A stretch of 64,000 bases of DNA from Diphasiastrum complanatum. Taxonomy: Eukaryota; Streptophyta; Lycopodiopsida; Lycopodiales; Lycopodiaceae. This document shows positions 1 to 63,370 of the stretch, one piece after another. Numbering within the stretch: position 1 is the first letter of the stretch; the number at the start of each line of letters is the position of its first letter. The notes beneath the pieces are model-generated. The model did not search any database. It was not told the origin of the DNA and was given only the letters and a program-made list of their open reading frames with translations. The position numbers and the translations under genes were made by a program. The stretch spans positions 25,106,930 to 25,170,929 of the forward strand of contig CM055113.1 in assembly GCA_029204225.1 (NCBI GenBank), given 5' to 3'.

Positions 1-240
1 GGGTCAGATAATTTACAAAGGGTCGAATTTATTAGACCCGACCTCTGATCCAGAGTCGAAGATGTCGGGATAAATTAGACCCGATTCGATCCGATCCAGG
101 GTCAAAGACGTCCGGATTTCTTCTGCCTCAATCCGATCCACTGATCCAGGGTTGGAAAATCACATTTTGATGGGATTGACATTGGGTCGGAAAATAGGCT
201 TGGGTTGGAAAAATTCGTTCATGAATTTTTTGATCCTTTG
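1..240. repeat. Degenerate GATCC/GGGTC-rich short repeat
   Basis: The first 240 bases repeat variants of GATCCAGGGTC and its complement (for example around 48-58, 96-106 and 140-150) with no open reading frame. It looks like the edge of a decayed repeat that continues beyond the window. No protein or known element is recognised. Confidence 0.4.
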
Positions 241-389
241 TTAAAATTTTGAGCCTTCATACTTTTGTGTATATTTTCAGAATAAGTATGAACAGGTTTC
301 AGGATGCTCATTATCTAATGGAATTGGGCTTGAGCATGCATTCCAACAAAAATAAGCAATGTAATTTAGGTTTGGAAAAATTGGAAAAG

Positions 390-675
390 GTTTATATGGA
401 ACAAAATACTTTTGTTTTTGAGCAAAGACAATGCAAATAGAATAGAAAGTGTTCATAGATTGAAGGATGTCCCATGCCTCCTTTGAAAATTAGCAGCTTA
501 TTAGAGGCATTCATCTTTAAGCAATGTAAGGCTATCTTAGACCTTTTCTTAAAATTGGATACTTCTTGTGGGTTTTGAGACACCTTCTCACAACCCAAAA
601 CTATATCCATCAGATTCTGGAGCACTAAAATAGACTCCATTCTTACTTTCCACGATGAGTAACCCTTTCACTATA
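390..675 (-). pseudogene. Copia gag fragment
   Basis: Read on the minus strand, this gives W-K-V-R-M-E-S followed by a segment with FKKRSKIALHCLKMNASNKL. It matches closely the Copia gag (UBN2-type) of the element at 60443-60772, which has YKKRSRLALHCMKMNVSNDL, and more distantly the gag at 19317. Only the N-terminal part of gag is left. The reading frame is lost upstream of the W-K-V-R segment and downstream of 392. No LTR, protease or polymerase follows, so this is an orphan fragment of a Ty1/Copia retrotransposon. The family call is firm because of the two internal relatives; the edges are approximate. Confidence 0.75.
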
Positions 676-2340
676 TTCCAACAAAAAAACCACTAATAAA
701 AGTCATTTTGATGGATACACAAGAAAGAGCTGTTGAATGGTTAATCAAACTTGGTATTCTAGAAAATTGGAACCCAAATTAAATATCCTTTATCAATTTG
801 GCAAGATATAAAAGGATTTTGACCCTATTGAAAACCAAACACAAAACTAGTGCAAAGGTGGACAACAATATATCCATCATGTAGTACATGATCAACACAG
901 AAGCTCAAAATCCAATTCGTTTAGTTGGAAGTTAAAGATGCCAACTACTTGAAGCTAAAATCACTACCAAAACAAAAACAACCAAATTGTAGTGATGCCA
1001 AGACACACCACCTATGCATTGTTGCAAGGTGAGGTTGATAGGTTACTACATTATGAAACACAACACTTATGATCATTGTAAGGCAACCCAAAAAGAATGA
1101 GCTACATTTACTTGCAATGAAGGCTTTGAATAAACTAGAGAGACAATGAGTGTATTTATTTGTGTGTCATTAAACCCCATTCTATTAGCTTTTCAAATTC
1201 TTCCATTATCACATGCATGTGCCCACCACCAATTCCATTTGAGTTGCATGTACTGCTAGGTTAATTTGCATATTGCATTTTTAGGTGTACAAGCTTTCAC
1301 TAGAAATTAGCGCATGATTTATGAAAAACTGAAAACCAAAACTTGAAGGCAACTCTCATCTACTAAAGCAAGTATATACATCTTAGTCACTTTCTTCAAC
1401 ATCCAATTTTTCATAGACTTTCTTGAATCACCTCAACAAATAGAGGCAAAAAAGAGAATGGTGAAAGTTGGCCTAGCTTGGATGCTTGGAATTTGATGTG
1501 CATAGTGCATACCACCAATGTTGCGAGAGTATATAGTTGCTCGGTATCAACAATGGTATCATAGAACATACTTGACTAGTATATCATTTTGTAATACTAA
1601 GGTCTAGAACCGAACCCCCCAATGTTAACTATCTTGATATTCATATTGATACTCGAGCGTGAAGGATTTTAAGGACTTTTGCCCCTGTATCAATATAATA
1701 GTGAATTTTTAGTAAATTTTTCTTGATATTTTAAATTTAATTATGTAAATTAGGGTGTCCCAAATATAGTGATGTACAACAACTAATGTTGCCTTGTCCA
1801 AATGAATTGCATATTGCATACAAAAAAAGGTTAGGCCTTTCTATAATCACATATTATCCTTCAAAAAGTATTTGTAGCAAATCGTGCATATCTATATCTG
1901 GGTTGATAACCAAATGCCTTGGATACCAGTCTACAACTCATATACCTCCTCATATTGATAGTCTACCAGTATTAACTTTGTACAAAAATTATAATACTTA
2001 AACCCGGTTGGTATCAAAGAAATTTATACCCACCCAACACTCGTGCATACCCAAGTTCTCAATTTATAAGTCCTAATTTGTATATAATCTACCTATAAAT
2101 CTTGATTGTAGCATATATGTATATGATTGGAGGGTATTTTTAGGGTTTGTGACCATGATCTTGGCGTATTTAAGAAAGGAATGGTTTATGCAATTTATGC
2201 TTTGAACATGATTTTAGGACTGCCTTTGAATTTTGGCACTTTTGGTGAGTTTTTTGGATTCTTCCTCTTATTAGAAGCCAAACACGCCCAAATGCCTTGC
2301 TTCACATCGTGCAACATGACCAACCTAACTAAAAATAATT
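676..2340. other. AT-rich intergenic DNA, no gene seen
   Basis: Stop codons are frequent in all frames, and the short open frames (for example 1786-2001 and 2127-2348) show no recognisable motif. No paired terminal repeats were found. It is probably old decayed repeat DNA upstream of the GT92 gene. Confidence 0.5.
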
Positions 2341-2766
2341 ACGTTTAATGCACGTTCCTAGTAGATCCACGTGTGGCTTTTTTGTCCGCCCACGTGTCAG
2401 GAAGCTGACCATAGAACGAGAGAGCTCCGTAATTGGCCCACCTGGAATTCCGTCGCTCTTTGAGGTGACGAAAGGGACGACGTCGGGGTACTTTTTTAGG
2501 GTTTCTGAGAATCCTAAAATGTATGATTTAGGGCTATAGAACGTTTTCAGATGGAAAGGCTGCTATAGGGTAGGGCTGATTAGGGTTAGGGTGGTGGGAA
2601 GAAAAAATAGCGAATATATTGATGTGTGAGAGAGAGGGAGAGCGAGCAAGAGAGAGTGAAGCTTGTGTGTTTTGATGGAGGTGAGATTCTTGGCAGCAGC
2701 TGTTGGCAGGAATGCAATATTGCCATAGTCTTCTCGTCGCGATCCTGTCCCAGCTGATCAAGAATT
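2341..2766 (+). promoter_or_regulatory. Promoter and 5' leader of the GT92 gene
   Basis: Base composition changes sharply to GC-richer DNA. Two CACGTG G-boxes lie at 2368-2373 and 2391-2396; the second continues as CACGTGTC, an ABRE-like form. A telo-box (TAGGGTTT) lies at 2497-2504 and a TAGGGTTAGGG at 2581-2591; such motifs are common near transcription starts of plant growth genes. A GA-rich stretch spans about 2627-2660. No clear TATA box was seen. A 17-codon upstream ORF (2675-2728) lies in the presumed leader. Binding by bZIP/bHLH factors is inferred from motif knowledge only. Confidence 0.55.
2675..2728 (+). CDS. Upstream ORF of 17 codons in the GT92 leader
   Basis: An ATG at 2675 opens a 17-residue frame, MEVRFLAAAVGRNAILP, that stops with TAG at 2726-2728, 38 bases before the main ATG at 2767. 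If the transcript starts upstream of 2675, ribosomes meet this frame first. The peptide is not recognised. Whether it is translated cannot be told from sequence. Confidence 0.35.
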   Translation: MEVRFLAAAVGRNAILP

Positions 2767-5509
<2,743 letters not shown>

Positions 5510-7433
5510 ACTCACTTTAGCTAGCAGCTGCTTGCCGACCCATTGCTATGGATTTAGCCATGGTTATGCACGTACTGTCTCCTTAAAGTAGCTCTCTAAT
5601 CTATTATTAAAAAGTAATCAAGATGACCTCTGACAGATGAATGCCTGCATGCGATCTTTAGCAAAGGCGGGATTTTGACCATTGGCTACTAATACAGAAC
5701 TGCTACATAACTAATGTACTCCAGAATTTATGGCAAATCAGAAAAAAACTTCACTGCTGGTAGATCTCGAAGACTACATTCTTACGTGATCCCCTGCAGT
5801 TTGTCAAATCACAAGATTATGTCACAGATGCGAATGCAATGACTAGCTGGATAGAGTCTAACTGCTTTACAACGAGAAGACTGCTTTGTAGTGAAATTCT
5901 CCTGCTGTAACTCACAAATAAGATGTGGGTGGTGTTGATTCATGCCCTCACTGTATGGAGACAGTTAAGGAGATTTTGCATTCATAAAAGCATATAGCTT
6001 AATCTCGTCATTTCTTATGACAATGTTCCAAATCCTTCTCAAGAATGGGTAGAATATGCATTCAGAGGATCAGATCAGCTTAAGTAGAATAGATCAGGAC
6101 TGGGACAATCAGTCCTGACGACTATTTGTTCAAATGTACTTTCAATTCAAAATGGTTCTAAATGTCTTCCCTTCTTGGCAGTACAAAGAACTGGAGCTCT
6201 TTAAAATGTGTATTAGCATATACTTCAAGCCAAAATATGATGATAATTTAATAGTAATAACTCGCAATAAGGCAATGTACATGGAGTAATATAAAACCTA
6301 CTCACATTAAGTGTCTATGCTCCTTTGCAAATTGATTCAATTTTGCCTTCAATAAAATGGCTCTCTCATAGAAAACAGTTAGCTACTCAATGTTAGCATA
6401 TTTTCTATCTTGTTAGTCCTTATGACCAACTAGACCAAGTCAAGATTTGATATTTATTCTATCTTGTGAGCTACTACTAGGAAGTTAATGTATTTGTGAA
6501 CACTTCATGTTCACAATAAACCGCTTGACATTTTGGAGTCCAAAGATTAAATCAAGTGACATTCTCATTCAATAAAACCACATAATTTTGGTAGTAAATT
6601 GATATCTAACAGAGTAACATAATTATGGTTTTGCTTCCAAAAAATTATCGTAGGCTTGCCATTGAGAAAAGAGTAACGTTGTTGCATTGTGACAATGATC
6701 AAATCGCTAGAAATTGCATGAATGAAGACATATAGAGACATGACTATTCCATATATAAGGTCGATAGAATTAACCTCATGAAAGAATTGCAAGGCACTAT
6801 TAAGATAACTTGACACATTGCAATGTGAGTGGAATTTATGGATGGTAACTTACTAAGCGGTTGGTTAGATTATAGGCATCCTTTTCTGATAATGTGATGC
6901 CTTTTCACAATGGAGTCAAGATTTAATATTGATTTGAAGACAAGGCATCATCATATTAGGGTTTAGGAAAGACCTAGTTAAGATGAATTTTAGCTCATGA
7001 TATTCTCCTCAATGTAAGACAACAAAGGAGCATGTAGAGTATCCATAGATTGTTCTCAAAATAAAATTCTTTGACCGGAAAAGCTTCATATTTACAATAG
7101 AAATGACACTATAGTGGTCATGTTATATATTCTCAAGGTGTATTGATGGAGTATGATAGGTTTTTCTAGTTATTGCTTGTTTGTGATTCTTAAATTCAAT
7201 CTTTAATTATGTACATGTGAGAAATTGGGTTCTCTGGTTTTTGTTTATCTATCTCTAGTAATAGGATCAACAACCATTGTTTAATATCTAAAATAAATGT
7301 TGTTTTTCTAAAAGTTTTTAATTTCATGAGTAAATTTTCTCCATCTTTGCCACATGTTAATTAATTAATTATTATTAACATCTTCAAATTAGTATATATT
7401 TAGTAATAATGTTAATTAAATAAAATTATTAAT
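5510..7433. other. 3' flank of the GT92 gene and intergenic DNA
   Basis: The 3' UTR probably occupies the first few hundred bases; no single poly(A) signal stands out. Around 6640-6800 on + a broken frame reads T-L-L-H-C-D-N-D-Q followed by R-H-D-Y, faintly like the CDN-x-SA and RSKHI...YHF blocks of Copia RNase H, but with stops; this is weak. Nothing else is recognised. Confidence 0.4.
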
Positions 7434-7841
7434 TGTGAAAGTATTGTACTTTAGGACCATAAATGGATCTACAAAAGATCCACAAGAGTGATTGGATGCT
7501 TGCTTAACAATCTATCAAAAAACTAGACACAAAAAAGTTGATCTAGATTGGCAATTTGACAAACAACAAGCATTAACAATCAAAAGCATTGATCAACATT
7601 GAAATCCAAGCCCTTACGTGTGTACTATAGGTTATAGTACGGCCTTCAACCTGAGAAACAAGTAGAAATTGATTTGGTTTCATTTGGATCACAAAAACTC
7701 AATGTACATAGTGAACTAGCTTGAGATTGCCAAGAGCTCCAAAAATTCTCTATCTTCTCACTATGGGAGCTTGGAATACATAGCAAATTTGACTTCCTTC
7801 TTGAAGTTAGGTGGATTTTCAGCATGTAATAAGAAAGTTAA

Positions 7842-8856
7842 TGTTGGATTTACTCCTTTTACTCTCCTAAATCCCAATTTTAATCTGCCTCCATTCATGC
7901 TGCATATTTACTAACGTTGTCATGCAGTCTGCATATTTACACGCAAATTCGCACAGACGAAGAAAAAGGCAAATGAATCGCGACACCGTGTTCTTACACA
8001 GGTTATGGTGATAGGCGAAAAGGGGACACTATCTTACTGAATGCCAAAAGTGCCCTAAAAGCTAAGGCACCTTGTAAATCTTATCCTAAGGCCATTCGTA
8101 AGAGTGACGCACTTTTGCATCATCACCAATGTTCACTTCAGTACTAACTAACGTCGCACCTTTTTCATGCCTACCCTATGCAGCTGCGCTAACAGATTGG
8201 ACAACAACTGCAGCCATCCACGATCTCTTATAGACATCACATCCACTCTGTATTTCAACATCTGCACACCTGTAATATTATGTATATATATTGGATACCA
8301 TCTGAGTATTCATAATGCATCGAGATGAAGAGATAAGAAGAGACTAAGAGAAGAGGTTTATTTTTATTCCTCATTATAGACATAATAAGCTTGGTAGGGC
8401 ACGCGGTTTTTTCCGCTATTGTATTGTGTTCTACCACATTATTAACATGTATACATCATATATTTAATCTGATACAACTCTTTGTTCTGCATTCAGATCT
8501 ATGTTAATATTGCTATGCTTATTCTTCATTCTATCTTATCTTTCTAATTGCTCTTTCTAGTAATAGACGATTAACTTTTAGTCTTGTCTTTTGCAAATCA
8601 TTCGCGACTAATTATCAGTCGAGCACAGTCTAGCTCTTCGCGAATCATTCGCGACAGATAATTTGTTGACAAATTATACATCTAGCGCTTCAATTATTAA
8701 ACGTTTGGCTACGTAATCTAGAATGACTATGATTTCTATCACTAAAGTTTTGTTCATTCTGATAGGCGTAGTCATGCTTAGGGAGAGAGTCAAATAATTC
8801 ATTCCGCTGCGCACGAACATTTTCTATTCGAGTTCGCTTCTCGTTCATTTCTTGTT
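7842..8856 (+). repeat. Copia B 5' LTR, truncated at its right end
   Basis: It aligns with the 3' LTR at 13941 from TGTTGGATTTACTCC through to CTTCTCGTTC...CTTGTT, where similarity stops and integrase coding sequence begins. A TATATATATT stretch near 8282-8291 may be the LTR promoter. Repeated TTCGCGAC-type inverted motifs lie around 8600-8680. Confidence 0.9.
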
Positions 8857-10297
8857 ATTGATGAATTCTCTAGAAGAACTATGGTGTATTTCATAAAGAA
8901 GAAATCAGAGGCATTCAACTGCTTCAGAATCTTCAAGGAGCGTGCATAAAAGGAGACTGGAAGGACAATCAAGACCCTAAGGTTAGATAACGGTGGAGAA
9001 TATATCTTTGTCGAGTTCAAGGAGTACTGCTAAAGCCAAGGCATTGAGCAGCAATTCATCACTCCTTACCCTTAGTCTAATGGCTTAGCTGAGAGGAAGA
9101 ATCGTACTCTGGTCGAATCTGCTAAGTGTATGCTAGCACATGCATCGTTGCCCAAGAGATTCTGGGCTGAAGCTGTCTCCACTGCAACTTACATCCAGAA
9201 CAGATGTTCGACCAAGGCTCTCTCAGACAAGACACCCCACAAGGTGTGGACAAGCTCTAAGCCTTCTTTGAAGAGCCTAAGAGTGTTTGGGTGCATTGCC
9301 TACGCGCAGATCCCAAAGGACACAAGGAAGAAATTGGACTTCCAAGGTCTAAAGACCATCCTGATCGGATATACTTCGTCTGATAACACTTACAAGCTGT
9401 ACGATCCTGATACCCAGCAAATCTTGTATAGCCGGTATACAGTCTTTATCGAGGACTAGTTCATCGACCTCAAAGGCAAGGATATTGCTCAAGAAGAACC
9501 TTCATCATCTGCCATTGACATGACAATCCGAGCTTTTGGCTCAGGCATGTCTATTGTCGACCCACTTCGAGACAACGAATCAAACAAAGATGTTGCTACT
9601 ACCCAACAACATATTCCAGGAGCAGTTCATCAGTCAAATCCTCCCAGAAGATCAAGCCGAGTGCGCACACAGCCCACAAGGTATACTCCTGAGTCTACCT
9701 GTCTTTTAATGCAGGAACTGACGACAGTCTAAGAGGCACTTAGCCAACCAGACTCTGATCTCTGAGAGAAGCTATGGACAAAGAGTATTCCTTTTTGATC
9801 AAGAATCAAACATGGTCATTAGATGAAGCTCCTATTGGCTACAATATTATTGATTGCAAATGGATATTTAAGATCAAATATAACGCCAACAGAGCGATTG
9901 ATTGAATTAAGTCTAGACTGGTAGCACGAGGATTCACCCAAATCTCGAATGTTGACTACAGTGAGACTTTTAGTCCAGTCGCCAAACATTCGTCGATCTG
10001 AATGCTCCTGTCTTATGCTGCAGCTGCCGACCTCGAAGTACATCAACTTGATGTACAAACAGCCTATCTGAATGGAGATATACAAGAAGATACCTACATG
10101 ATCCAGCCCAAAGGATACGTTCTGGAAGGCATGAAGAATCATGTCTGTAAACTCCACAAAGCATTGTACGGCTTGAAATAGTCTGCCAGAGCTTGGTTTC
10201 AGAGGATCAACACATTTCTCATTGAACAAGGATTTAAACCAAGCATTGTTGATTGCAACGTTTATTCAAAGTCAGTGCAACAATCCTTCATTATCAT
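8857..10297 (+). pseudogene. Copia B integrase and reverse transcriptase remnant, part 1
   Basis: The frame opens inside the integrase core (I-D-E-F-S-R-R-T). It carries the LRLDNGGEY block (catalytic D) and, after internal stops, NGLAERKNRTLVE (catalytic E), then the open stretch 9130-9459 covering the integrase C-terminal part (VWTSSKPSLKSLRVFGC). A linker at 9520-9732 leads to the reverse transcriptase N-terminal half: WIFKIKYNANRAID, SRLVARGFTQ, AYLNGD and KALYGLK. Several TAG/TGA codons interrupt it, so no functional protein can be made. It breaks off at 10297, where Copia C is inserted, and resumes at 12935. Confidence 0.9.
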
Positions 10298-10947
10298 TGT
10301 GAAAGATTCAACTAGTTTCATCACATTTTGCAATATTTCCATATTTGGCATATTGAGGCCAAAACTTGTTTTAGACTTAGAGGTTGACTTTTCAAAGTTC
10401 ATTAGTCTAAATTTCATTTGAATAAACACTTTTTGAAAGTGTGGGAAAGATAGAATGCGAGTTTGAGTAGATTCAATTTGAATAAGTTGGGTACATTGAA
10501 TCTAGACCCAAAATTGGTAGGGTTAGCATTTTGGTGAGAAAGCCAAGTGGCCAAATAGGGTTTGGACCTGCTATAAAAAGATGTAACTCATGGAGAGAGT
10601 CATCTTCTCTCTTCTCTATCTCATTTCATGCTTATACATGGTTCTCTTGGGTTCTACTATCCATTGGTGCACTATCTTGGTGATTGCTTGCAATTCTATG
10701 TGTAGAATGATCTATATTTGATATTTTTGGATCCACAAGTGTGAAATACAGTAGCTTGTTGGTTTTGTACAAACAGCAATAGTACATAATCATTTCATTC
10801 AAGTTTGATCAAGTTCTATTAGTGTTTGCATCTCAAATTGTGTGTAGATGCTGATTTTTCTACATTGGTGAAATTGGTAATGTATTTCTCTTTCTAACCA
10901 AAGATCATTCAAGTAGATTGGATCTTAAGGATCTGAAATCTTTCACA
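10298..10947 (+). repeat. Copia C 5' LTR
   Basis: This 650-base LTR starts TGTGAAAGATTC and ends GAAATCTTTCACA. It has a TATA-like CTATAAAAAG near 10571 that probably marks the promoter. It matches 12283-12934 almost base for base. Confidence 0.95.
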
Positions 10948-10960
10948 TGGTATCAGAGCT
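10948..10960 (+). promoter_or_regulatory. Copia C primer binding site
   Basis: TGGTATCAGAGCT directly abuts the 5' LTR. It is complementary to the 3' end of plant initiator-methionine tRNA, the usual primer of Ty1/Copia reverse transcription. Confidence 0.92.
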
Positions 10961-11278
10961 TGTGTTTTAGGTTATGAAGGTAGAAATCAGATCTATCAAT
11001 GATTTGGTGAAGATATCAAGTCTAGAGCATGCTAGAGAGGATTCTACACCAAAATCAGATTTTTTGCTTTTGTAGATTGGATCTTCTATAGATCAAAACA
11101 CTAAATAGGTCAATATACTTGTTCAATTTTGTTTTTTAAATTCACATGCTAGATTTGGCCGATTTTTGGATCATTGGTTCAGCCTAAGTGGTGGCTTATA
11201 GATTGCATATCAAATTTTCAACATTTGCATGTAGAATTGGAATAGTCAATTTTTTGTGATTTTGTCAAAACCCTAATT

Positions 11279-11716
11279 TTGATTGGATCTCTAGATAGTG
11301 AGGTTGCCGGACCTCTGTGGCAAGATGAAGATGGAGGCTCATTCATGGAGTATCATGGTGGATACAAGGCAACAAAGGACAAAGAAGGAGGAGACATGCA
11401 AGCAAAAGTTGATCACTCACATTTATTGTTTGTTTGTTGTAATTTCCCAGAGAGTTTAGAGTTGGAAGCATGGTGGAATCATTTCATTTACATTCTATTT
11501 GATTCTTCATGTTCTAGTCACATTTTTACATGTAAAATTGATGTAAGAAATAGTGAAGCATCCCAAGTGGACACTATTCTCTATATCAGTTATGGTTGTT
11601 TCTATTTTGAGCATTACATGATCATTGAAAGGAGATCTATTCTTAGGAAGAAGATCATTCTTATGATGGATCAAAGTTCTATTGGCAAAAACTATGCTAG
11701 GAGCATTGGAAACTAG
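11279..11716 (+). pseudogene. Copia C leader ORF, possible gag/protease remnant
   Basis: A 145-codon frame lies between the primer site and the RNase H frame. Most of it is not recognised. One stretch, LFDSSCSSHI, resembles the Copia protease motif LDSGCSSHM but has Ser where Gly should follow the catalytic DS, so it would be inactive. The remainder may be fused scraps left by large internal deletions. The assignment is weak; the frame could be fortuitous. Confidence 0.35.
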
Positions 11717-11727
11717 GAAAGCGAGTT

Positions 11728-12264
11728 TTGAGGTACATCATTGGAACTCGAGACTTTGGCATATTGTATGAGGGATCATCACCTAATCTTTTTGGATTTT
11801 CAGATTTGGACTATGCTGGAGATGTAATGGATAGGAAATCCATTAGTTCTTATTGTATTTTCATAGGTGATGGAGCTATATCATGGATGTCAAAGAAACA
11901 AGCCACTATCTCATTGTCATCTAGTGAGGCCGAGTACAAAGCTCTTACACATTGCACAAAGGAGATGGTATGGATCAAAAGGATGATCAAGGATCTTCAC
12001 TTGCTGGATTTTTCAGAGAGCCCAATCATCTTTTGTGACAATCAATCAGCCCAAAGAATGGCATCCAATCCTATCTTTCATACTAGGAGCAAGCATATTG
12101 AGATACAATATCATTTTGTGAGGGAGCGAGTCATTGCAAAGGAGGTGGAGCTTCAACATGTGTCTTCAAGGGAATGTGTAGCTAATATTTTCACCAAAGC
12201 ATTGGGAAAAGACTTGTTCATGAAGCATAGGACTTCACTTGGAGTATTATCAAGTCTATGCTAA
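11728..12264 (+). pseudogene. Copia C RNase H domain, open frame
   Basis: An uninterrupted 178-codon frame covers the Copia RNase H. It starts in the connection segment (RYIIGTRDFGILY) and carries SDLDYAGD with the first catalytic Asp. It then has ISWMSKKQATISLSSSEAEY with the catalytic Glu, CDNQSAQRMASNP with the next Asp, HTRSKHIEIQYHFVRE and the C-terminal ANIFTKAL. All expected acidic residues are present, so this domain alone is well kept. With no reverse transcriptase or integrase in the element it has no evident autonomous role. The upstream frame has lost its start, so this is called a remnant. Confidence 0.9.
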
Positions 12265-12269
12265 AACTA

Positions 12270-12282
12270 GTTGAAGAGGGAG
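12270..12282 (+). promoter_or_regulatory. Copia C polypurine tract
   Basis: GTTGAAGAGGGAG ends exactly at the 3' LTR start (TGTGAAAG at 12283). Purine runs at this place prime plus-strand DNA synthesis in LTR elements. Confidence 0.8.
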
Positions 12283-12934
12283 TGTGAAAGATTCAACTAG
12301 TTTCATCACATTTTGCAATATTTTCATATTTGGCATATTGAGGCCAAAACTTGTTTTAGACTTAGAGGTTGACTTTTCAAAGTTCATTAGTCTAAATTTC
12401 ATTTGAATAAACACTTTTTGAAAGTGTGGGAAAGATAGAATGCGAGTTTGAGTAGATTCAATTTGAATAAGTTGGGTACATTGAATCTAGACCCAAAATT
12501 GGTAGGGTTAGCATTTTGGTGGGAAAGCCAAGTGGCCAAATAGGGTTTGGACCTGCTATAAAAGGATGTAACTCATGGAGAGAGTCATCTTCTTTCTTAT
12601 CTATCTCATTTCATGCTTATACATGGTTCTCATGGGTTCTACTATCCATTGGTGCACTATCTTGGTGGTTGCTTTTGCAATTCTATGTGTAGAATGATCT
12701 ATATTTGCTATTTTTGGATCCACACGTGTGAAATACAGTATCTTGCTGGTTTTGTATAGACAGCAACAGTACATAATCATTTCATTCAAGTTTGATCAAG
12801 TTCTATTAGTGTTTGCATCTCAAATTGTGTGTAGATGCTGATTTTTCTACATTGGTGAAATTGGTAGTGTATTTCTCTTTCTAACCAAAGATCATTCAAG
12901 TAGATTGGATCTTAAGGATCTGAAATCTTTCACA
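12283..12934 (+). repeat. Copia C 3' LTR
   Basis: A 652-base copy of the 5' LTR with a few substitutions and small indels (for example GGTGGGAAAG instead of GGTGAGAAAG). Its CTTTCACA end is followed by the TSD copy ATCAT. Confidence 0.95.
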
Positions 12935-13932
12935 ATCATCACCTTGTATGTTGATGATATGTTGCTCTTCAGCAACAATGCCAATATGGTCAAGGATTTG
13001 AAACAAATGTTGTTCTCAGAATTCGACATGACTGATCTGGGTGAAGCACACTTCTGTCTTGAAATTCAAATCCACAGAGACAGAGCAAATCGACTGATTT
13101 ACATCACTCAACAAAGGTATCTTTATAATGTTCTTAACAGATACAATTGAATGATCTGTAAATTAGCTCACATACCAATGGATCCAGGCCTGCATCTGTC
13201 AAAGGACCAATGTCCCCAGACCAAGCAAGAAGAGGAGCAGATGAGAGATTATCCGTATTGATCGATACTTGGATCTCTCATGTACGCAATGGTCTGTACA
13301 AGACCAAATATCTCTTTTGCTGTCAACTCACTCAGCCAATATAGCTAATTTTGGAATTACCCATTGGAAGGGCAATTCGAGTCATGAGATATATTCGAAC
13401 TACCATGGACTAGTGCATCTGCTATGGAGATGTCAGCAACGACAATCTCAGTGGTTATTCTGATGCAAGCTGGGGAGGAGATGCAGATCATCGTAAGTCC
13501 ACATCTAGATTTACATTCTTCTTCAATGGCGGTCCTATTTCATGGAACAGTCGTAAGCAAACCTCTATCGCACTTTCTTCTACTAAAGCAGAATATATTG
13601 CTGCTTCTCAATCTATTAAGGATGTGTTTTGATTGAGAAATTTGTTGTCAGACATCACTCTGTATCAGTACAGCCCTACAATTTTGTTTTGTGATAATCA
13701 AAGTGCTATTGCCTTATTGGCCAATCCTAGATTTCATTCTAGGAGTAAGCACATTGAGATAAGATATCACTACATCAGGGGCAAGGTTCTCGACAGAGAG
13801 GTGAGCTTAACGTACTGCAGAACGCAGGACATGGTTGCAGACATTTTCACGAAAGCACTCAGTGTTAATGCACACAACAGATTTTGTGCTTTGCTCAGTC
13901 TGAAGATCAAGGCATTCACGGATCCAGATTAA
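12935..13932 (+). pseudogene. Copia B reverse transcriptase and RNase H remnant, part 2
   Basis: After Copia C the host frame resumes with the reverse transcriptase active site LYVDDM (12947-12958) in the open stretch 12905-13150. The thumb/connection region follows in shifted frames; a GSLMYAMV-like segment lies near 13270. RNase H is split by frameshifts between about 13430 and 13660. The last 99 codons (13633-13932) are open and carry LFCDNQSAIALLANPRF, HSRSKHIEIRYHYIRG and ADIFTKALS. Stops and frameshifts make it non-functional. It ends just before the polypurine tract and 3' LTR. Confidence 0.9.
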
Positions 13933-13940
13933 GGGGGGGG
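13931..13940 (+). promoter_or_regulatory. Copia B polypurine tract
   Basis: AAGGGGGGGG lies directly before the 3' LTR that begins TGTTGG at 13941. Confidence 0.85.
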
Positions 13941-15011
13941 TGTTGGATTTACTCCTACTCTCTTAAATCCCAATTTTAATCTGGCTCCATTCAGGCTGCA
14001 TATTAATGCTGTCACGCAGTCTGCATATTTACACGCAAATTCGCACAGACGAAGAAAAAGACAAATGAATTGTGACACTGTGTTCTTACACAAGTTATGG
14101 TGATAGGCAAAAAGGGGACACTACTTACTGAATGCGAAAAGTGCCTAAAAGCTAAGGCACCCTGTAAATGTTATCCTAAGGCCATTCGTAAGAGTGACGC
14201 ACTTTTGCATCATCACCAACATTCACTTCAGTACTAAGTGACGTCGCACCCTTTCATGCTCACCCTATGTAGCTGTGCTAACATATTGGACAACAACTGC
14301 AGCCACCCACGATCTCTTATAGACAGCACATCCACTCTGTACTTTCACATCTGCACACCTGTAATATTATGTATATATATTGGATACCATCTGAGTATTC
14401 ATAATGCATCGAGATGAGGAGATAAGAAGAGACTAAGAGAAGAGGTTTATTTTTATTCCTCATTACAAACATAATAAGCTTTGTAGGGCATGCAATTTCG
14501 TCCGCTATTGTATTGTGTTCTACCGCATTATTAACATGTATACATGATATACTTAATCTAATACAGCTCTTTGTTCTGCATTCAGATCTATGTTAATATT
14601 GCTATGCTTATTCTTCATTCTGTCTGATCTTTCTAGTTGCTCTTTCTGGTAGTAGACGATTAACTTTTAGTCTTGTCTTTTGCAAATCATTTGCGACTAA
14701 TTATCAGTCGAGCACAGTCTAGCTCTTCGCGAATCATTCGCGACTAATAATTTGTCTTGCAATTCGCGACAAATTATTCATCGAGCACTTCATTTATTAA
14801 ACGTTTGGCTACGTAATCTAGACTGACTGTGATTTCTATCACTAAAAATCTGTTCATTCTGATAGGCGTAGTCATGCTTAGGGAGAGAGTCAAATAATTC
14901 ATTTCGCTGCGCACGAATATTTTTTGTTCGAGTTCGCTTCTCGTTCGTTTCTTGTTCGAGTTCATTTCTCGTTCGTGTTCATTATTTATTCTTTTCCCCT
15001 CTCTCCCAACA
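13941..15011 (+). repeat. Copia B 3' LTR, complete
   Basis: A 1071-base LTR with ends TGTTGG and CCAACA. It keeps the 55 bases (TTCGTTC-rich, then CTCTCTCCCAACA) that the 5' copy lacks. The GTTAA target duplication follows at 15012-15016. Confidence 0.93.
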
Positions 15012-15267
15012 GTTAACTCACCCCTAAAATGAAACCCTAGTCTATTTCTAGAGTCATGCTTGGTAGATAGCTAGTTGGCCAATTTTCATCTTAAATCTAC
15101 CAAAATGACATGACCAACCCTATGGACTTGACCTAACCTACATTAGGAGTGGGTTGCCACCTGGCATCTTGGCCTTTCATGTGTGAAACCCAATTATACA
15201 CAATATCTACAAAGTTCTACATTGTTTTGATCAAGCTAGATTTGCCAATTTTTGGCAATTCTTCACA

Positions 15268-16660
15268 CTCCTCAAATTTAGCTTGATTTAAAATTCTCTT
15301 GATAGATGAATGAATGCTTTAAAAGTTTCTAAAAAAACCATCTACAAACAAGGAACTTTTGAGATTCCAATAGAGAATGATGTCCATGAAAGATCTTTCA
15401 CCACCTCTCAAAGGATCTCTTACAAGATGTTCCACAAATGTGTCTATATACATGTAGCACACTTCAAAAATTATACATCATGCCAAGCCATGGATTCCAA
15501 GGCATTTTGTGCACTTGAAGATACATCAATTAAACTATTAAGTTCATGCACAATGTTGCCAAAGACAATTTGCCTTGTTTGATCTATATGATTGAGCCTA
15601 GATGGCTCCATCTTGATACTCAAGATTCTTCTTGGAGTCCTTGGTCTTGAGCTTGCTCCTCCACTTGACTTGACCCCAAAACATCAATGAATTGAATAAG
15701 GTGTTGATCCAAAGGTGCTTCTTTAAGTTTACAAATATTCCACTCTTGAAAGATCACATTTCCACCATTGACAAATTCTTTGGTTGAAAACAAGTAGATT
15801 CTACAATCTCTACTTGAAGAGCAAGACACTAACATTATTCCTATCATTGGAATAGAATAATCTTTGGTCCTTACATTGGAATGATCATGCACAAAGCATG
15901 TGGATCCAAATATCTCCAATACAAACGATGTTTCATCTTATATGACACTATTCAAACAATAATTACAAAAATAGTTATCCAATGAAATTGCTTTATCAAC
16001 AACAAATGTAGCATCTAATTTCATTGTCTTGTCATAAAGAGTACTAAACACCATAGATCTTAAAGATAAGCAACAAGTCACTCCATGTCTACTAATACTT
16101 TCCAAAAAGTATTCAAAGATAGTAGACTCTCCAATGCTCACCACCTTTGCAAGATGCACACTTGAATGGACAATTTGCATGCAATTTGATGACTTGGCCA
16201 TTGTCATTGAGGACTCCTTTGGAACTCTCATGATTTGAGGCTGATCCTCAAGATCTTCCTCCTTTTGATGCTCCTCCTCAATGCAAGCAAGATCACACTT
16301 TGCCAAGATCTCCTCTTGAGTGATCTCCTCCTTTGTCAAGCTCATTCTTTCAAAAGCAACACTAGCTTCCAACTTAAACAATCTTCCATGTTTAAATCCC
16401 TTTGCAATGCAAACATCATTCTTCAAGATGAAATAAACACCATGCTTAAAGTGGACATCCAAACCACTTTCTAAGAGTAGACCAACACTAAGCATATTCT
16501 TGGTGATTGATGGTACATAATGTGAAAAAATTGGATCTTGAATGGATCCAAACTCCCAAAATGCTTGACTAAGATCTTTGCACAACAAGTTACAAAAGCA
16601 AGAAATGGCAAAACATCCTAATGCTACTTTTGATACACATGAACTTGACAAAGCATTCAA
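15268..16660 (-). pseudogene. Copia A protease/pre-integrase and integrase-end remnant
   Basis: On the minus strand, 16660-15938 is a 240-codon frame. It holds the segment that follows Copia protease (YVPSITKNMLSVGLLLESGL, then FILKNDVCIAKGF and GRLFKLEA). Normally the integrase zinc finger and core come next. Here they are replaced by about 140 unrecognised, partly acidic residues. A second frame, 15919-15620, begins with FGSTCFVHD and a D-C-R-I-Y-L-F-S-T-K block, matching the integrase C-terminal region. Reverse transcriptase and RNase H are absent before the LTR at 15267. The product is a deleted, non-autonomous Copia. The first about 40 residues of the long frame come from the inverted repeat at 16598 and are not Copia-like. 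Confidence 0.75.
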
Positions 16661-16706
16661 GAGACGAAAGAAACTAATAAAAGGTACTGATGACAGCCGA
16701 AAACAA
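16598..16706 (-). repeat. Left arm of a 106-bp inverted repeat (pairs with 18101-18206)
   Basis: Read on minus, this stretch matches 18101-18206 on plus over about 106 bases with few differences: GCTGTCATCAGTACC against GCTGCCATCAGTACC, and GCTTTGTCAAGTTCATGTG shared. On the opposite reading both arms encode a hydrophilic peptide, KHPN(A/S)TFDTHELDKAFKR, which looks more protein-like than the antisense frame. It may be a captured gene piece. Identity is unknown. Confidence 0.75.
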
Positions 16707-16835
16707 CAGCATACCTGCCCTACAACAGCAGCCTACCAATTTTGGAAACCTCTTAAGATCATACACAAAAGCTTGAAGACAATACACAAAGCAATGCTCT
16801 CAATGGAGGAAGAAACTGTGACAATGATCTATTGA

Positions 16836-17060
16836 TCTCTCTCAACAATACAATAAGTTTCTCCAACCTGTTCTCCACAAATTTCAATCTAATATAGGTG
16901 AGAGAGATGAATCTCTTTCCTCTCTCTAGAACTTAGGACCCAATTTTAGAACACCAGTAGCCTAAAATAGCCAATTTTGGCCTATATGTCCAAATAACAT
17001 GATTTTGGTGTCATTTCGAAGGTCCTGAAAACGAAGAAAAAGGATTCGAGCTACACCACT
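16836..17060. other. No gene seen
   Basis: AT-rich DNA with short CT/GA-rich runs (near 16898-16926). No motif was recognised. Confidence 0.4.
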
Positions 17061-17340: not shown

Positions 17341-18100
17341 AAAGACAAAACACATACCTCTGAAGTACCATCACATTCAAGATTTGATCTTGAAAGGAGA
17401 GCTCCAGGTCCAGTATATAAAATGATTTGGTCAAGGTCTGTGATTATAAAGGTTACTTTATCTTCCAGGCTCTTAGGATAACAATAAGCAATCAGATCAG
17501 ACAACAACTAGCAAATAGATTCATCAAACAGAATCAAATTGGCTAACGATTCTCCTTAATTGAACACAGAGAATTAGTTTTTATTATAGGAAGCAAACAG
17601 AACAGAGCATCAAACAAGTTCATTATCTGAATACATAGCTCATTCAGAATTGAAAGGAGTTTTGCTTATGGTTATGCTTAACAACTTCGGCTAATTCCCT
17701 GCACACATTAATTAGAATTGTCGCTCTCTGATGATGCTTGAAAATCCACGTTAGAGTAACTGAAATTCAGTAAGAAATGAAAAATATGTGTGACGCAGAA
17801 AGAGAAGTATCACAAACAGTTACAAATCGTTCAGAGTGTATTCGCTCAATTGATAAGAAGTAATGTTGTAAGAGATGGCAGAGGGAAAGAATGCTCAAGC
17901 TTATAGAAATTGGCTCTCTTCTCTCTCTATTGATACTCAAATCTCTGCGTGTGTACAATGGCACAAAGTGTCAACTTTATAGGAATGATCATTGGCCTAA
18001 ATGTCGTTTACCAACTGTTAAAGTATCGGTTGAGATCTACTAATGCGTCTCTATAGAACGTCGCACAAAACGTTGCGAGATTTAGGACTGGTATGCTATT
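17341..18100. other. No gene seen
   Basis: AT-rich sequence without convincing coding potential. It may include LTR or 3' sequence of the RNase H remnant just before it, but no matching partner repeat was found in the window. Confidence 0.35.
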
Positions 18101-18206
18101 GGTTTTGGCTGCCATCAGTACCTTTTATTAGTTTCTTTTGTCTCTTGAATGCTTTGTCAAGTTCATGTGTATCAAAGGTAGAATTAGGATGCTTTGCCAT
18201 TTCTAT
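18101..18206 (+). repeat. Right arm of a 106-bp inverted repeat
   Basis: Inverted copy of 16598-16706, about 1.4 kb away. It carries the same hydrophilic frame on the minus strand (KHPNSTFDTHELDKAFKR). Confidence 0.75.
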
Positions 18207-18460
18207 CTTTTGTATATTTGGATGTTTGATCAAGTTCTAGCATGATTATGCATTGCACAGTTGATCAAATCTGACTAACCTTTGTTTTGTGAGTTGAACT
18301 TGTGGATCAAAAGTATATTTTAGGTCTATTGAAGATCAGAGGCTGAGAAGAAGCTATTTTGGATCAGATCATAACACCTACTCATTTGCTGATTGTGAGC
18401 TTGTGCATATTCAATACTAACAATGTTCTGTTCAATGTATTGTTGACAGTCTCCACTTCT

Positions 18461-18531
18461 GTGGATGAACACTCTCCTTTGTGGATGAACACTCTCCTTA
18501 AGTGGATGAACCTTCTCCTTAAGTGGATAAC
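18461..18531 (+). repeat. 20-21 bp tandem repeat, 3.5 copies
   Basis: Units of GTGGATGAACACTCTCCTTT type start at 18461, 18481, 18502 and 18523. Related pieces (CTTGGATGAACGATCCCCTTT) occur just downstream near 18583. The array lies in the presumed 5' region of Copia E. Confidence 0.9.
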
Positions 18532-19316
18532 AAATACTCTTTGAGTGATTTTGTATTTCTCCAAGAGGCTGAGCAAAGCTCCCACTTGGATGAACGATCC
18601 CCTTTTGGGTGAACAGATTGTCAACAATCTTTTGCATAAATTTTGGTGTACTTTGTTGAGCATGTAAGTAACTCTCCTTATGTAATTTAATTAAAGCATT
18701 TACTAGAAAGTTTTAACCATTATGAAAATGTGTTTTCAGGTTCTTAACATGTTGAGAAACATTCTCATGTGAAGTGATCTTAGATCTATATCTAAACACC
18801 AAGATTTGACAAGCTAGTGAAACTAGTCTTGTGATTCACTAAGTGTGCTCTTCTTTCACCTCTAAAACTTGTACTTATCACTTGCTGGAGTTTATAAACT
18901 TTTATAAGTGTGGTTTACATGTGGTTTTATAGGTTGAATCAATATCTTAGTGTGTTGATCATATGTTGATCAAGTTTGTTCAATTCTAATTATTCTTGAC
19001 AGCCTAGTCTTTTGAATTTTCTAAGAATGCGAGTAACTCTTCACACCATAACTCAATTTGGTCACCTTCTGGAAAGTTTGAGAGCTTAATCAAGAGTGTG
19101 TTCAGGTTGGTTTGAGTTTGTAATCCATTCTTAGTGTGTGCAAAGTGTTGCATGTGTTTTAGTCTTCCTTTTTATGCTTGAAACCAGCCAGGTTCAAGAT
19201 AGAAGTATTTTAGGATCCTAGATCTTCTGAGATCTTCTTATCCATCATTTGTTGAGAGGAAAGTGAGTGCTAGGTGCATTAGGACAGAGCCTAAAATTTG
19301 AAGAATCATTATTTTC

Positions 19317-21184
19317 ATGGCTTCCAATGGTGGGATCATGCTAGAAACTAATGATAGGTTGAGTTCATCAAACTACTCTACCTGGAAATTGAGGATGGAA
19401 TTCTTACTTGAGCTGAATGAACTCATGGACATAGTTGGAGGAACTGAAGAGAGACCACCCACAGTTCAAGAGCAACAAAGGTTTAATAAGAAGGCTAAAA
19501 GGGCTCTTCATATCTGCAAAATGAATGTTACCAATGAACTTCTCAAGGAAGTTGGTAGAAGTCAAAGTGCAAGTGAGGCATGGAATGCCTTGAAGAAGCT
19601 CTTTGAATTAAAGTCCACATCTAGGGTATTGACCCTAAGGAGGCAAATATTTTCTAGTAGGCAAAGAGAGGGAGAAAGTGCTCATGCATTTTCATGCATT
19701 TGTCTTGAGGGTTAAGTCCTTAAATGATGATCTAGCATGCATTGATTAAAGCATAAAAGATGGTGAAATAGTACAAGTTATGTTGAATGGTTTGCTAGAT
19801 GAACATGCTAACCTTGTGAAAAGTTTTGCCATTCAAAGAGTCTTGCCAATTGTGGTTGACTTGCAAGAAATCTTATTGGCTGAAGAACGTAGGTTGCAAT
19901 CAAAGCTTGATGGTGCATCCTTGCAAGGTGGAGGTGAAGAGGCTTTCTTCACAAAAGACAAAGTCAAAGGCAAAGGTAAAGGCAAAAGGGAAATGGTCCA
20001 AAGGTGGTAACTCGGATCATGATGATCACTCTTCCTCCTCCTCTTCTACTTCTTTTAGAAAGAAATATAAGTCAAAGTTCAAGTGCTTTTATTGTGGGAT
20101 AAAAGGTCATTTTGCAAATGAATGTCATAAGAAGCAAAGTAATGAAGGTAGCAAGCAAAACAACTTTTGTACTTCTGATGAGGATCTAGATTCTTGTGAT
20201 TCTCTCATGATGTGTTCTTCAAGTCCAATGTCAAGTAGAAGTGACAAGGATTTATGGTGGATAGATAGTGGATCTAGTTCACACATGACTAGTCACAAGA
20301 AGTTCTTTACTTCTTTGATCTCTTATGTTGGAACCAAGAAAGTGGTTCACATGCCAAATGGTGGTGAGTGTATGATCAAAGGTATTGGCTCAATTCCTAT
20401 TTGCCTTTCTACTAATAGGAATACAAGGCTTGATGGTGTTCTTTACATTCCTTCACTTTCAAGGAATTTGCTAAGTGTTGGTCAAATGTTAAAGAAACGG
20501 TACAAGACAAAGTTTGTTGGGGATGTTTGCTTCATTACTAAGGGAGATGTCTTGATTGATAGGGGCAATAGACAAGGTAGACTTTACAAGCTTGATGCAT
20601 TTGTTATGTCTAACAAGAGGAATGAAATGGATGTTGGTGGTTCTCTCAACTTTCAAAAGTCAATTCCTGGCATCAATAAGATTGGTAGATCTTATGCAAA
20701 GTCTAAAGAGCTTCCTTATGCTAGATCTAGGTTGAGATCTAATGAGCTTCTTGGAGATAGTTATTGTTGTGCTAACTTGGCAACTTTTGGTGAATCTATG
20801 ATCAATGTTTTGGATCCATTGGATCTTAAAGATGGACTAGTGCTACCTACTAGTCAAATGGAGTCATGTGGTGCTAAATTAGTATCATGTTTGAACTCTT
20901 CTACTCATAGATTTCCAAGTCTTGGTGGCTCTTCAATGGAACTACATGGAAAGTGCAAAAATGAAAAAGGTAAGAAGAGAGCTAACTTCTTCAATGGAGG
21001 TGATGAAAACTCTTCTTTGGAAATGGTTGTTGCTAATGACTTATTTACTCATTTGGAAAGAGATGGTGCTTTGAGCATGTTTGAAAAAAAAGTCTCTTTT
21101 GTTTCTTTATGTGATGAGTCCAAGAAAGTCATTTGTGCAACAAGTGGTGTCACATGTAAAAGGTTCTATCATGAGACTTGGTGA
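19317..21184 (+). pseudogene. Copia E gag-protease polyprotein, polymerase absent
   Basis: Gag starts at 19317 (MASNGGIMLETNDRLSSSNY) and has the KAKRALHICKMNV block. A 10-base duplication (CATGCATTTT then CATGCATTTG, near 19682-19701) breaks the frame, and gag resumes around 19780. The frame 19826-21184 holds a complete zinc knuckle (C-x2-C-x4-H-x4-C, 20084-20125), the protease motif WWIDSGSSSHMTSHKKF near 20254 and the pre-integrase segment ending GRLYKLDAF near 20605. About 190 further codons follow that resemble no Copia domain; integrase, reverse transcriptase and RNase H are missing. A purine tract lies 270 bases on. The layout resembles gag-only non-autonomous LTR elements that use enzymes from relatives; that role is inference. 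Confidence 0.8.
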
Positions 21185-53699: not shown

Positions 53700-54958
53700 G
53701 TATAACATACTAAAAATAGTCCCACATTCTCTTTACAAAGTTAATGTAGATTTTGAATGTAAATCTAGATGTGGATCTACAAGTATCTCCATCTCTTGCC
53801 CAACTTGGGTCTGAATAATCATTTAGTATGTTGAGTTTGTTGATGTCAACTTCTCCATAATAGATGCATCGATCCATAGTAGCTCGAATATATCTCATAA
53901 CTCTGATAAGAGCTTTCCAATGTGTGATAACCGGATTAGCCATGTACTAGCTTAAGGAACTAATTGCAAAAGCCATGTCTGGTCTGGAGATCATCACATA
54001 CATGAGAGAACCTATTATCGAATGATATGGGTACTCTCGCATCTGATAGGAATATCGAATGACATGGGTACTCTCGCATATGATAGGAATATCGAATGAT
54101 ATCGGTACTCTCGCATATGATAGGAATATCGAATGATATCGGTACTCTCGCATATGATAGGAATTGTGGTATCGAAAACACGAGTGTTCGATAGTTCGAC
54201 TATCGACAATACATTCGAATTCTCTGAGGTTCAATAATGAAGGTTTGGAGCTTGTCCAAACTTTGTAAGACATCTGGTCTAAGAGCCTTTTAGTCGAACA
54301 TCTGTTTGGAATATTAGCTATAGTACAAACAGTTTTAGCCTAGAAATACCTAGGCAGTGTCGCACAACCATATACTTAGCCGCTTCGACTAACGTGCAAT
54401 TCTTTCTCTCAGCGAGTCCATTAGATTGGGGTGAATAAGGAGTGATAAATTGTTACTCAATGCCTTTACCAAGGCAATATTCCTTGAATTCAGTTGAGTG
54501 TATTCTTCATCGTTGTTTGATTTCAGTACTTTGATTCTTTACTACTTATGAGTTTTGCATGGTCCTTGAATTGTTTGAAGAGGTTGGCAACCTCTGATTT
54601 TATGCTTTATGAAATAAGTAGCTGTTTTTCTCAAAAATTCATCGACGAATGTAATAAAGTACTTTGCACCAACCAAATATAAGGCCTGGATTGGGCCACA
54701 TATGTTTGAATAGAACATCTTTTGCTATATGCTTATGAATTGATCTAAAAGGAATCAGATTCTACTTTTTGATAATCGAAATCAAGTACAAGAGATTGTC
54801 GAGACATGTTCAAAACAGATGCATGATTGAAGTGGCCTAGCCTATAGTGCCAAAGTAATGCTTTATTAACTAGAACATCAGTTTTCAAGGCTCGACTTGT
54901 GTCAGGATAATAATGAGGCAATCTATATAAGTATCCATGCCTCTTGCTGAGTGTAAGG
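53700..54958 (-). pseudogene. Copia remnant: pre-integrase, integrase, RT end, RNase H start
   Basis: On minus, a degraded pre-integrase stretch (54.8-54.95 kb) is followed by integrase pieces (54.3-54.65 kb), including the catalytic-Glu NGLAERKN-type block near 54.41 kb, and VWTSSKPSLLNLREFEC (near 54.24 kb). A 37-bp tandem array (54017-54164) intrudes. Then come IIGSLMYVMISRPDMAFAISSLS, the C-terminal part of reverse transcriptase, and HWKALIRVMRYIRAT...CIYYG and SDPSWARDGDTCRSTS, the start of RNase H. The catalytic half of the reverse transcriptase is deleted. No LTR was found at the 3' end. Confidence 0.8.
54017..54164. repeat. 37-bp tandem repeat, 4 copies
   Basis: Four nearly identical 37-base units (ATCGAATGATATCGGTACTC...GATAGGAAT) start at 54017, 54054, 54091 and 54128. 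They arise within a Copia reverse transcriptase coding stretch (R-E-Y-P-Y-H-S-I before GSLMY). Since 37 is not a multiple of three, each extra copy shifts the frame. Confidence 0.97.
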
Positions 54959-59596: not shown

Positions 59597-60772
59597 CTAA
59601 GATGAGGATAGGAGAACACAACAAGAGAGACTATGGAACCAAACTGCCCAACCTAACAACCTGGATCTAGGAACATGAAGAACATCCTTAAGATTCATCT
59701 TTCTGGATGATCCAACATACAATGGGATGGTTCTTATTCCACTTATCTTACATTCTTGACTACTTGCAGTATAGATTGATCTATGTAAATCATTGTAAGA
59801 AAGTAAAGTGGAGAAAATGTCCTTTTGATATGTCATGTGAGAACTATGAAGCCACCAAGAATCATTGGTGTTGCTCTTGGATGATGGTGGTTTGTTGGAA
59901 ACCATCAAGGATGACTCTTCTTCATCCTCCTCCTACTGATGTGCACTGTTGCTTTGTTTGCTCTCTTGTGCCTTCTTCTTCTTGAGACATTCTGATGCAA
60001 AAAGTCCTTTCTTTCCACAGAAAAAACATTTGTACTTGGACTTGTCATTGATCTTGCCCTTTGAGCTTGAAGCCTCATCCTCCTCCTTGGTCTTCTTGAA
60101 GTGCTTCTTCTTGCCATTGGTCTTCTTCTTGCCTTTGAATGAGAAATCAGCTTTCTCATCACCATCCTGCAGGGAAATAGCATTCATTCTTGCATTGGTA
60201 TGCATCATCCTACACTCTTTCGCCACTAATACACTATGAAGCTTTTCTATAGTGGGAAAAGTGTCTTAGATTGCAAAACTTTGGACCAAATTTGCAAAGT
60301 CATCTCCTAGACCATTAAGGACAATTTGTACAAGCTCTCCATCATGAATCTTCTCTCCATTGGAAGCTAACTCCCTAGTGAGAGACTTGATTCTGAGCAC
60401 ATAATTCTGTGCACCCTCATCACTCCTCTTGCTTTGTAGAATCTAATTCCTAAGCATGAGAACCCTCGAAGTGTTACTAGACTCATAGATTGATTTTAAA
60501 GATTCCCAAGCCTCTTTAGCACTTTTACATGATGATACTTCCCTCAAAAGATCATTGCTTACATTCATCTTCATACAGTGAAGTGCAAGCCTAGACCTCT
60601 TCTTGTATCTCACTAATTCGTGTGCACCTAGAGGTTCATCTTCATCATCAATTAGAAACTCATAAAGATCCTGGAGCACCATGAGTGACTCCATCCTCAC
60701 TTTCCAAATAACATAATTGGTAGAAGTTAACCTCTCACTAGCTTCTAGAAGGTAGGCTCCCATTGATCCCAT
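59597..60772 (-). pseudogene. Copia D gag-protease remnant
   Basis: On minus gag starts at 60772 (MGSMGAYLLEASERLTSTNY) and has YKKRSRLALHCMKMNVSND and KEAWESLKSIYESSNTSRVL, open to 60443. After stops the frame 60226-59933 carries a knuckle with Leu in place of the His (CFFCGKKGLFASEC), so zinc binding would be impaired. The protease region (59908-59597) reads SWWLHSSHMT where WWLDSGCSSHMT is usual: the catalytic DSG is missing. MNLKDVLHVPR marks the pre-integrase segment. Similarity ends near 59.6 kb. The orphan gag at 390-675 is a close relative. Confidence 0.85.
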
Positions 60773-61306
60773 CTTACTAGTGAAATTCTACACACAAGAT
60801 ATAGACTTGGTTGAACTTGAAACTCACAAAGGTTTCTTACTTGCAGTGTTTCACTCAAATTAGATTTCTAATCCAACAGATGGACTTGTAATCAGAGTTC
60901 TATCACTCCCTCACAAAGCTAGAATGAAGATAAGATGAAATGAAAACTACTCTCAAGCAAATTTTGCCAATCTTGGCTATTTTTGGACAATAGAATGACT
61001 CTATCTCTCTCTATCACTTTAATGTACTTTCAAGGCCTGTTTTCCACTTTAGGGTTTGAAATCAGCCTAGATTAATAGTTCTCATGAAATAAACTCAAAA
61101 CTAATTTACGGTAACTGATCTTGGTAGCTTATCCTAGAATTTGCACCAAAAATTACATCAAACTGACACCAGATGAAACTGTAATGATCCAATGAATATA
61201 GGGGTTTAAATGCTGGTTCAGAGTTGCCCACATGTGTGAACAGTACGGATTTTGATCCACAAAAATTTTGGAATCAAATCCCCTCACCAATTCCAGGATA
61301 CCAGCT
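60773..61306 (-). other. Leader or LTR region of Copia D
   Basis: Sequence upstream (on minus) of the Copia D gag start. It contains a CACATGTGTGAACAGTAC motif (61230-61247) shared with 55.6 kb. A TGGTATCC at about 61295 on minus resembles, but does not match, the initiator-Met primer site. It is cut at 61306 by the CACTA-type repeat. Confidence 0.5.
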
Positions 61307-62090
61307 CACTAGGCCAAAATGGGAAAAAATGACGACCAAAAACCATCATTTAAGTCGGTTTTAATGACGGTTTTGAGGGTCGTCACTTAAGTTATGTCAT
61401 AAAACCAATGGTTGAAATGATGGCCAAAAACCGTCATTTATGTTATTTTAAACGACCAGCAAACAGTGTCATTTATTTATTTTTAATCTAAAAAAAAAAT
61501 GACGACCAAACACTGTCATTTAGACCATCTTAAATGATAGTCAAAAATCGTCATTTAAATCGACTTAAATGACAACCATTAAAAACTGTCTTTTTTATTT
61601 TGCCAAAATGGAGAATAAATGACGGCCAAAAATCGTCATTTAAATCAACTTAAATGACGACCATTAAAAATCGTCCTTTTTAGTTTGTCGAAACGAAGGA
61701 TAAATGACAGCCAAAAACCGTCATTTAAGTCGACTTAAATGACGGCCAATTAGAATTGTCTTTTTTATTTTGTCAAAATGGAGAATAAATGACGACAAAA
61801 AATCATCATTTAAATCAACTTAAATGACGGCCATTAAAAATCGTCCTTTTTATAATGCCAAAACAAAAAATAAATGACGGTAAAAAACCGTCATTTAAGT
61901 TGACTTTAATGACTACCATTAAAATCGTCATTTTTATATTGTCAAAACAAAAAAATAAATGACGATAACAAATCGTCATTTAAATCGACTTAAACAACGA
62001 CCAATAAAAACCGTCTTTTTTATGTTGCCAAAATGAAAAAACAATGACGAACAAAAACCATCATTTAATCAACTTAAATGATGACCAAAG
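61307..62090. mobile_element. Probable CACTA transposon end with palindromic subterminal repeats
   Basis: CACTAGGCCAAAATGG at 61307 has the CACTA start typical of En/Spm-type DNA transposons. Behind it lie many inverted TGACGGCC.../...CCGTCA motifs. From about 61616 they settle into an ~84-bp period (61616, 61700, 61784, 61868, 61953, 62038). A perfect 28-bp palindrome lies at 61718-61745, with half-site CCGTCATTTAAGTC. Such subterminal repeats bind the transposase in CACTA elements. The opposite end and any transposase gene were not found; similarity stops near 62090, so this is one end only. Confidence 0.65.

Positions 62091-63370
<1,280 letters not shown>

Follow-up and report, generated by a model that had tools for sequence, protein, structure and literature searches.

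In plants, LTR retrotransposons are frequently nested in one another, and a survey of 12 genomes carried out with TE-nester reported 1491 nested pairs (PMC6911290). In this survey, the mean age estimated from LTR divergence is lower for nested elements than for their hosts (0.99 versus 2.14 My), and coding regions and LTRs are described as not commonly targeted. The locus described here resembles the nests of the survey in that younger elements lie inside older ones, and differs from them, as they are presented there, in that three Copia-type elements are stacked, one of them (B) within an LTR and another (C) within a coding region. Since the survey describes both kinds of site as not commonly targeted, these insertions are in less favoured, not exceptional, positions. 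In relation to the Ty1/copia elements, B shows an integrase-side domain before the reverse transcriptase domain (RVT_2), a target site duplication (TSD) of 5 bp and TG...CA ends, and the primer-binding site (PBS) TGGTATCAGAGC is present in intact relatives; it differs from them in that A is cut and both B and C are defective, B having neither gag nor PBS.

The window, that is, the whole stretch of DNA analysed, covers 64 kb of the Diphasiastrum complanatum genome (C22:25106930-25170929), and it was compared with the complete assembly (1.74 Gb, 5176 contigs), the best 40 candidates being scored in each search. Three defective LTR retrotransposons (A, B and C, from the outermost to the innermost) are stacked at one chromosomal spot. 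The original prediction of a three-level Copia nest, in which A is split by B and B by C, has been confirmed by TSDs, LTR pairs and uninterrupted family copies, and it is almost certain that the nest of LTR retrotransposons results from ordinary integrations that followed one another. The first to arrive would have been element A, on the minus strand. Element B, which is on the plus strand and shows the Copia domain order, would then have integrated into the 3' LTR of A, duplicating GTTAA, and element C (plus strand, internally deleted, from another Copia family) would have entered the reverse transcriptase region of B, duplicating ATCAT. The whole left part would later have been doubled, through segmental duplication or because the assembly retained both alleles. 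Every insertion was presumably made by integrases of the usual type, and the defective copies may have been mobilised by enzymes from intact relatives. Near the nest, the frame 2758-3858 corresponds to a host gene with a match to glycosyltransferase family 92 (E 1.1e-20).

The outermost element is represented by two stretches that flank B, 7434-7841 (408 bp) and 15017-15267 (251 bp), which join into one LTR of 659 bp with TGTGAA...TTCACA ends. This is the 3' LTR of A and, read on the minus strand, it is immediately preceded by the purine tract AATTTGAGGAG, in agreement with the LTR of about 659 bp expected after the purine tract of A. The left part matches many genomic copies at 97% identity and below. 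The contiguity of positions 7841 and 15017, on which the prediction depended, was found in the 15 A-family LTRs examined (among 38 further matches listed, the window and its second copy not being counted): the target GTT(A/T)ACTCA is uninterrupted in all of them, these being other family members elsewhere in the genome and not orthologous loci. One of the 15, L024, was left out of the alignment of family copies because its match ends at query base 592. As 13 of the 15 copies span 699-703 bp, the LTR of A is about 40 bp shorter here. The 3' end of the internal part of A extends on the minus strand from 15268 to 16520, where matches in other copies stop exactly, so that A is cut at this point; of the 39 other best-scored places, 38 match 15268-16520 end to end and one in two pieces. 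Neither the 5' end nor the target duplication of A was found within the window, and its insertion is therefore deduced from LTR, purine tract and strand. There is no second A LTR within the 64 kb either, which means that A is not datable by LTR divergence.

Element B, of Copia type, occupies 7842-15011 on the plus strand, including the nested C, and it is flanked by identical GTTAA duplications at 7837-7841 and 15012-15016, exactly as predicted. Its ends are TGTTGG...CCAACA. The 5' LTR (7842-8856), delimited by alignment to the 3' LTR, by intact relatives and by a junction search, lacks its last ~55 bp, and the 3' LTR (13941-15011, 1071 bp) follows the purine tract AAGGGGGGGG; both LTRs are 91.4% identical (blastn). 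The domains follow the Copia order: SH3_retrovirus (frame 9076-9459, E 8.2e-23) is located upstream of two RVT_2 fragments (frame 10002-10181, E 1e-17; frame 12842-13150, E 2.3e-14), and the integrase core itself (rve) gave E 0.053 only. Two B-family LTR pairs fetched from contigs C3 and C7 both show exact 5-bp duplications (CGACT and ATTCC). Elsewhere in the window (53755-54616), minus-strand Copia fragments are 68-70% identical to B 8887-9283 and 13238-13518.

Element C is located at 10298-12934 on the plus strand, between exact ATCAT duplications at 10293-10297 and 12935-12939, and it splits the RVT_2 profile of B just before the YVDD motif, as had been anticipated. In the 12 B-family copies examined (among 38 other matches listed), which are again non-orthologous family members, the site runs uninterrupted into the YVDD codons; L064 begins to diverge about 10 bases further on, and a single base of the site is changed in L066. 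C begins with TGTGAAAG and ends with CTTTCACA. Its 5' LTR (10298-10947, 650 bp) is followed by the PBS TGGTATCAGAGC, its 3' LTR (12283-12934) measures 652 bp, and both are 97.4% identical (blastn). The internal part is 1335 bp long and Copia reverse transcriptase is absent from C itself. The family was classified from its relatives: an almost complete RVT_2 domain (E 2.5e-78) occurs in L054, which carries the C LTR and the 3' internal part. In L045, L051 and L054 the RT-bearing frame continues into the frame found in C at 11701-12264 (plus strand); this pol-end frame, without any Pfam match on its own, was assigned to the RNase H side by its place after the reverse transcriptase in those relatives.

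The insertion order A, then B, then C, proposed in the original prediction, is well supported. It is read directly from the target duplications, the uninterrupted sites, the orientation of the elements and, for B and C, the relative LTR divergence. The probability of an exact 5-bp match at fixed LTR ends, calculated from base composition, is ~0.0013 for each element and 1.7e-6 for both. The Kimura two-parameter (K2P) distance between LTRs is 0.0705 in B (67 of 1004 sites; 49 transitions and 18 transversions; 3' LTR taken from 13942) and 0.0235 in C (15 of 650 sites; 10 transitions and 5 transversions), and the difference is significant (Fisher p 3.9e-5). The older age of B is in agreement with the order.

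Another matter is when the defects arose. It is possible, although rather unlikely, that the nest arose largely from elements incapable of autonomous movement: the A family would lack most of pol, B would already have been devoid of primer site and gag on insertion, C would have been pol-deleted, and all of them would have been moved by enzymes of relatives. TR-GAG elements are non-autonomous LTR retrotransposons that contain gag between the LTRs and no pol. The A family resembles them in two respects: i) L071, an A-family copy that could be read past the cut together with L072 (96.8% identical to each other over 501 bp), contains a Copia-type gag (Retrotran_gag_2, E 1.3e-24) and the start of pol (the beta-barrel domain Pol_BBD, E 2.9e-23), ii) in A only 1253 bp separate the cut from the 3' LTR, and the frame tested there (15938-16519) has no Pfam match, to pol or otherwise. 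No pol beyond its start was found in the A-family parts read. The A-family copies were all read in part, so that pol may be present in their remaining stretches, in which case the family would differ from TR-GAG.

In B, the integrase frame comes directly after the 5' LTR at the junction 8856/8857, the PBS and gag being missing, and the LTR end and PBS are present in the relatives on contigs C3 and C7. Among the best-scored matches, the similarity at 36 other places is limited to the integrase side and starts at 8855-8858; one of these, on contig C4, has a piece of the LTR end at a distance of ~250 bases and seems to carry a different deletion. The junction is spanned by the matches at two loci identical to each other (L073 and L074), where the similarity is confined to 8824-9047. 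The 10 other loci with a C LTR that were fetched are also heterogeneous. L045, L051 and L054 share the last 584 bp of the internal part of C, with longer pol upstream, L052 shares positions 369-1335 of it in one piece and L047 the same with a gap. L053 shares the first 368 bp only, and L046, L048, L049 and L050 show the LTR only; among these lone LTRs, L046 and L050 have exact duplications (ATTTT and GTAAA) and the flanks of L048 and L049 (GTGAG and GTGGG) are no exact duplication. Because the deleted core of C is common to L052, and the deletion junction of B to L073 and its identical counterpart, both deletions may predate the insertions.

Towards the far end of the window, a gag region at 59670-61306, on the same strand as A, is 75-80% similar to L071, and tandem-like self matches follow at 61313-62093. 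This region was considered as the displaced 5' half of A, 43 kb away, and rejected: its identity is far below the 90-94% of the A family and it fades at the edge. It is taken as a separate related element.

It had been proposed that one family struck this spot before and after B, on the basis of shared LTR ends and length. The shared ends and the near-equal length stand: both LTRs are TGTGAA...TTCACA and 650-659 bp long here, the PBS TGGTATCAGAGC is common to C and to the A-family copies, and the purine tracts end in GAGGAG (A) and GAGGGAG (C). Nevertheless, the sequences between these ends differ so much that a single family is very improbable, and it was rejected at this level by blastn, nhmmer profiles and global identity. 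LTRs of one family are expected to be at least 80% identical over 80% of their length; global identity between A and C is 46.4%, close to the 41.2-45.5% obtained with 8 shuffles, whereas the true A-family copy L005 is 92.9% identical. The best blastn match between A and C, with the right part of the joined A query taken from 15022, is 15 bp long (E 0.051). The two family profiles do not recognise each other in reciprocal nhmmer searches (best E shown 0.016, antiparallel).

A fourth element, D, provides a further comparison. It is a truncated LTR (509 of ~655 bp) at 16521-17029 on the minus strand, which begins with TGTGAAAAAA at 16521 and is joined to A at 16520. Exactly this interval is matched at 36 of the 39 other best-scored places, the remaining three falling short of it by a few terminal bases. 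Complete LTRs of this family (~655 bp, TGTGAA...TTCACA) were found in L075 and L076, with exact duplications ACAGA and ATTCA, respectively. Judging from such copies, the most likely reading is that D inserted into A and was truncated later. D has the same ends and length and is only 47-51% identical to A or C, so that these two characters do not define a family here.

In their own orientation, the local alignment between A and C scores 627, compared with a shuffle mean of 503 (sd 26), and none of 300 shuffles reaches this value, an excess that speaks against A and C being wholly unrelated. Scores for A-D and C-D also exceed 300 of 300 shuffles; for A reversed against C the observed score was reached by 21 of 300, and for the 3' LTR of B against C by 43 of 300. 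A, C and D may therefore share a distant ancestor, and the own-orientation score, together with the PBS in A-family copies, the ends and the purine tract, suggests that A and C are at most distant relatives. Over 125 residues, tblastx shows 46% identity between the gag of the A-family copy L071 and the gag frame at 19317-19691.

Two observations concern the D family. At 18083-21184 there is a plus-strand relative of D, with a piece of LTR (18083-18214), an internal match to L075 (18214-19193), a gag_2 frame (19302-19715) and a further long frame up to 21184. Besides, the internal stretch 11319-11694 of C is 72.6% similar to the one that adjoins the 3' LTR in L075, which hints that the C and D families have recombined or share an ancestor.

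The use of LTR divergence to date B would fail if its LTRs came from different recombined elements. In this respect, the 5' LTR of B is nearer to the C3 LTR than to its own 3' LTR (94% versus 91% identity; 5.3% versus 6.9% differences). However, the LTR pair of the C3 element differs by 2.9%, so this element looks simply younger. When the C3 relative is included, 7 informative sites group both B LTRs together and the alternatives have 2 each. The private changes of the B LTRs are even (29 and 31), as expected of one evenly ageing insertion, and GTTAA is exact on both sides. Recombined LTRs are hence hardly credible.

The nest exists in a second copy. Window positions 1-15020 are also found at C22:24957973-24972929, ~149 kb to the left on the same chromosome, with 99% identity (K2P 0.0044), and the match runs on, interrupted, for at least 31 kb further left. 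This copy includes B, C and both target duplications, which makes the split younger than C, in line with its divergence. It stops within a few bases of the end of B, where exactly 10,000 N follow, a usual length for an assembly gap. The bases just after this gap have their best other matches on the minus strand of the same chromosome (100% and 99%) and form no collinear overlap, so that the second copy is either an unpurged haplotype or a segmental duplication. That the second copy halts at this run just past B does indicate a region hard to assemble, but a nest made of chimeric joins at repeats is a very improbable explanation, given that the window itself contains no N, that the B and C junctions read alike in the second copy (as far as it reaches, just past the right end of B) and that exact target duplications are not expected from false joins.

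The nest formed by successive integrations into A and then B is judged to contain nothing outside the known kinds, and the arrangement is very common. Its value lies in a series of retrotransposon insertions that can be ordered cleanly, with internal checks, at a single spot of a 1.74-Gb genome, and in illustrating that shared LTR ends and length are insufficient to assign two elements to one family. Otherwise, it is an ordinary instance of how such genomes grow.
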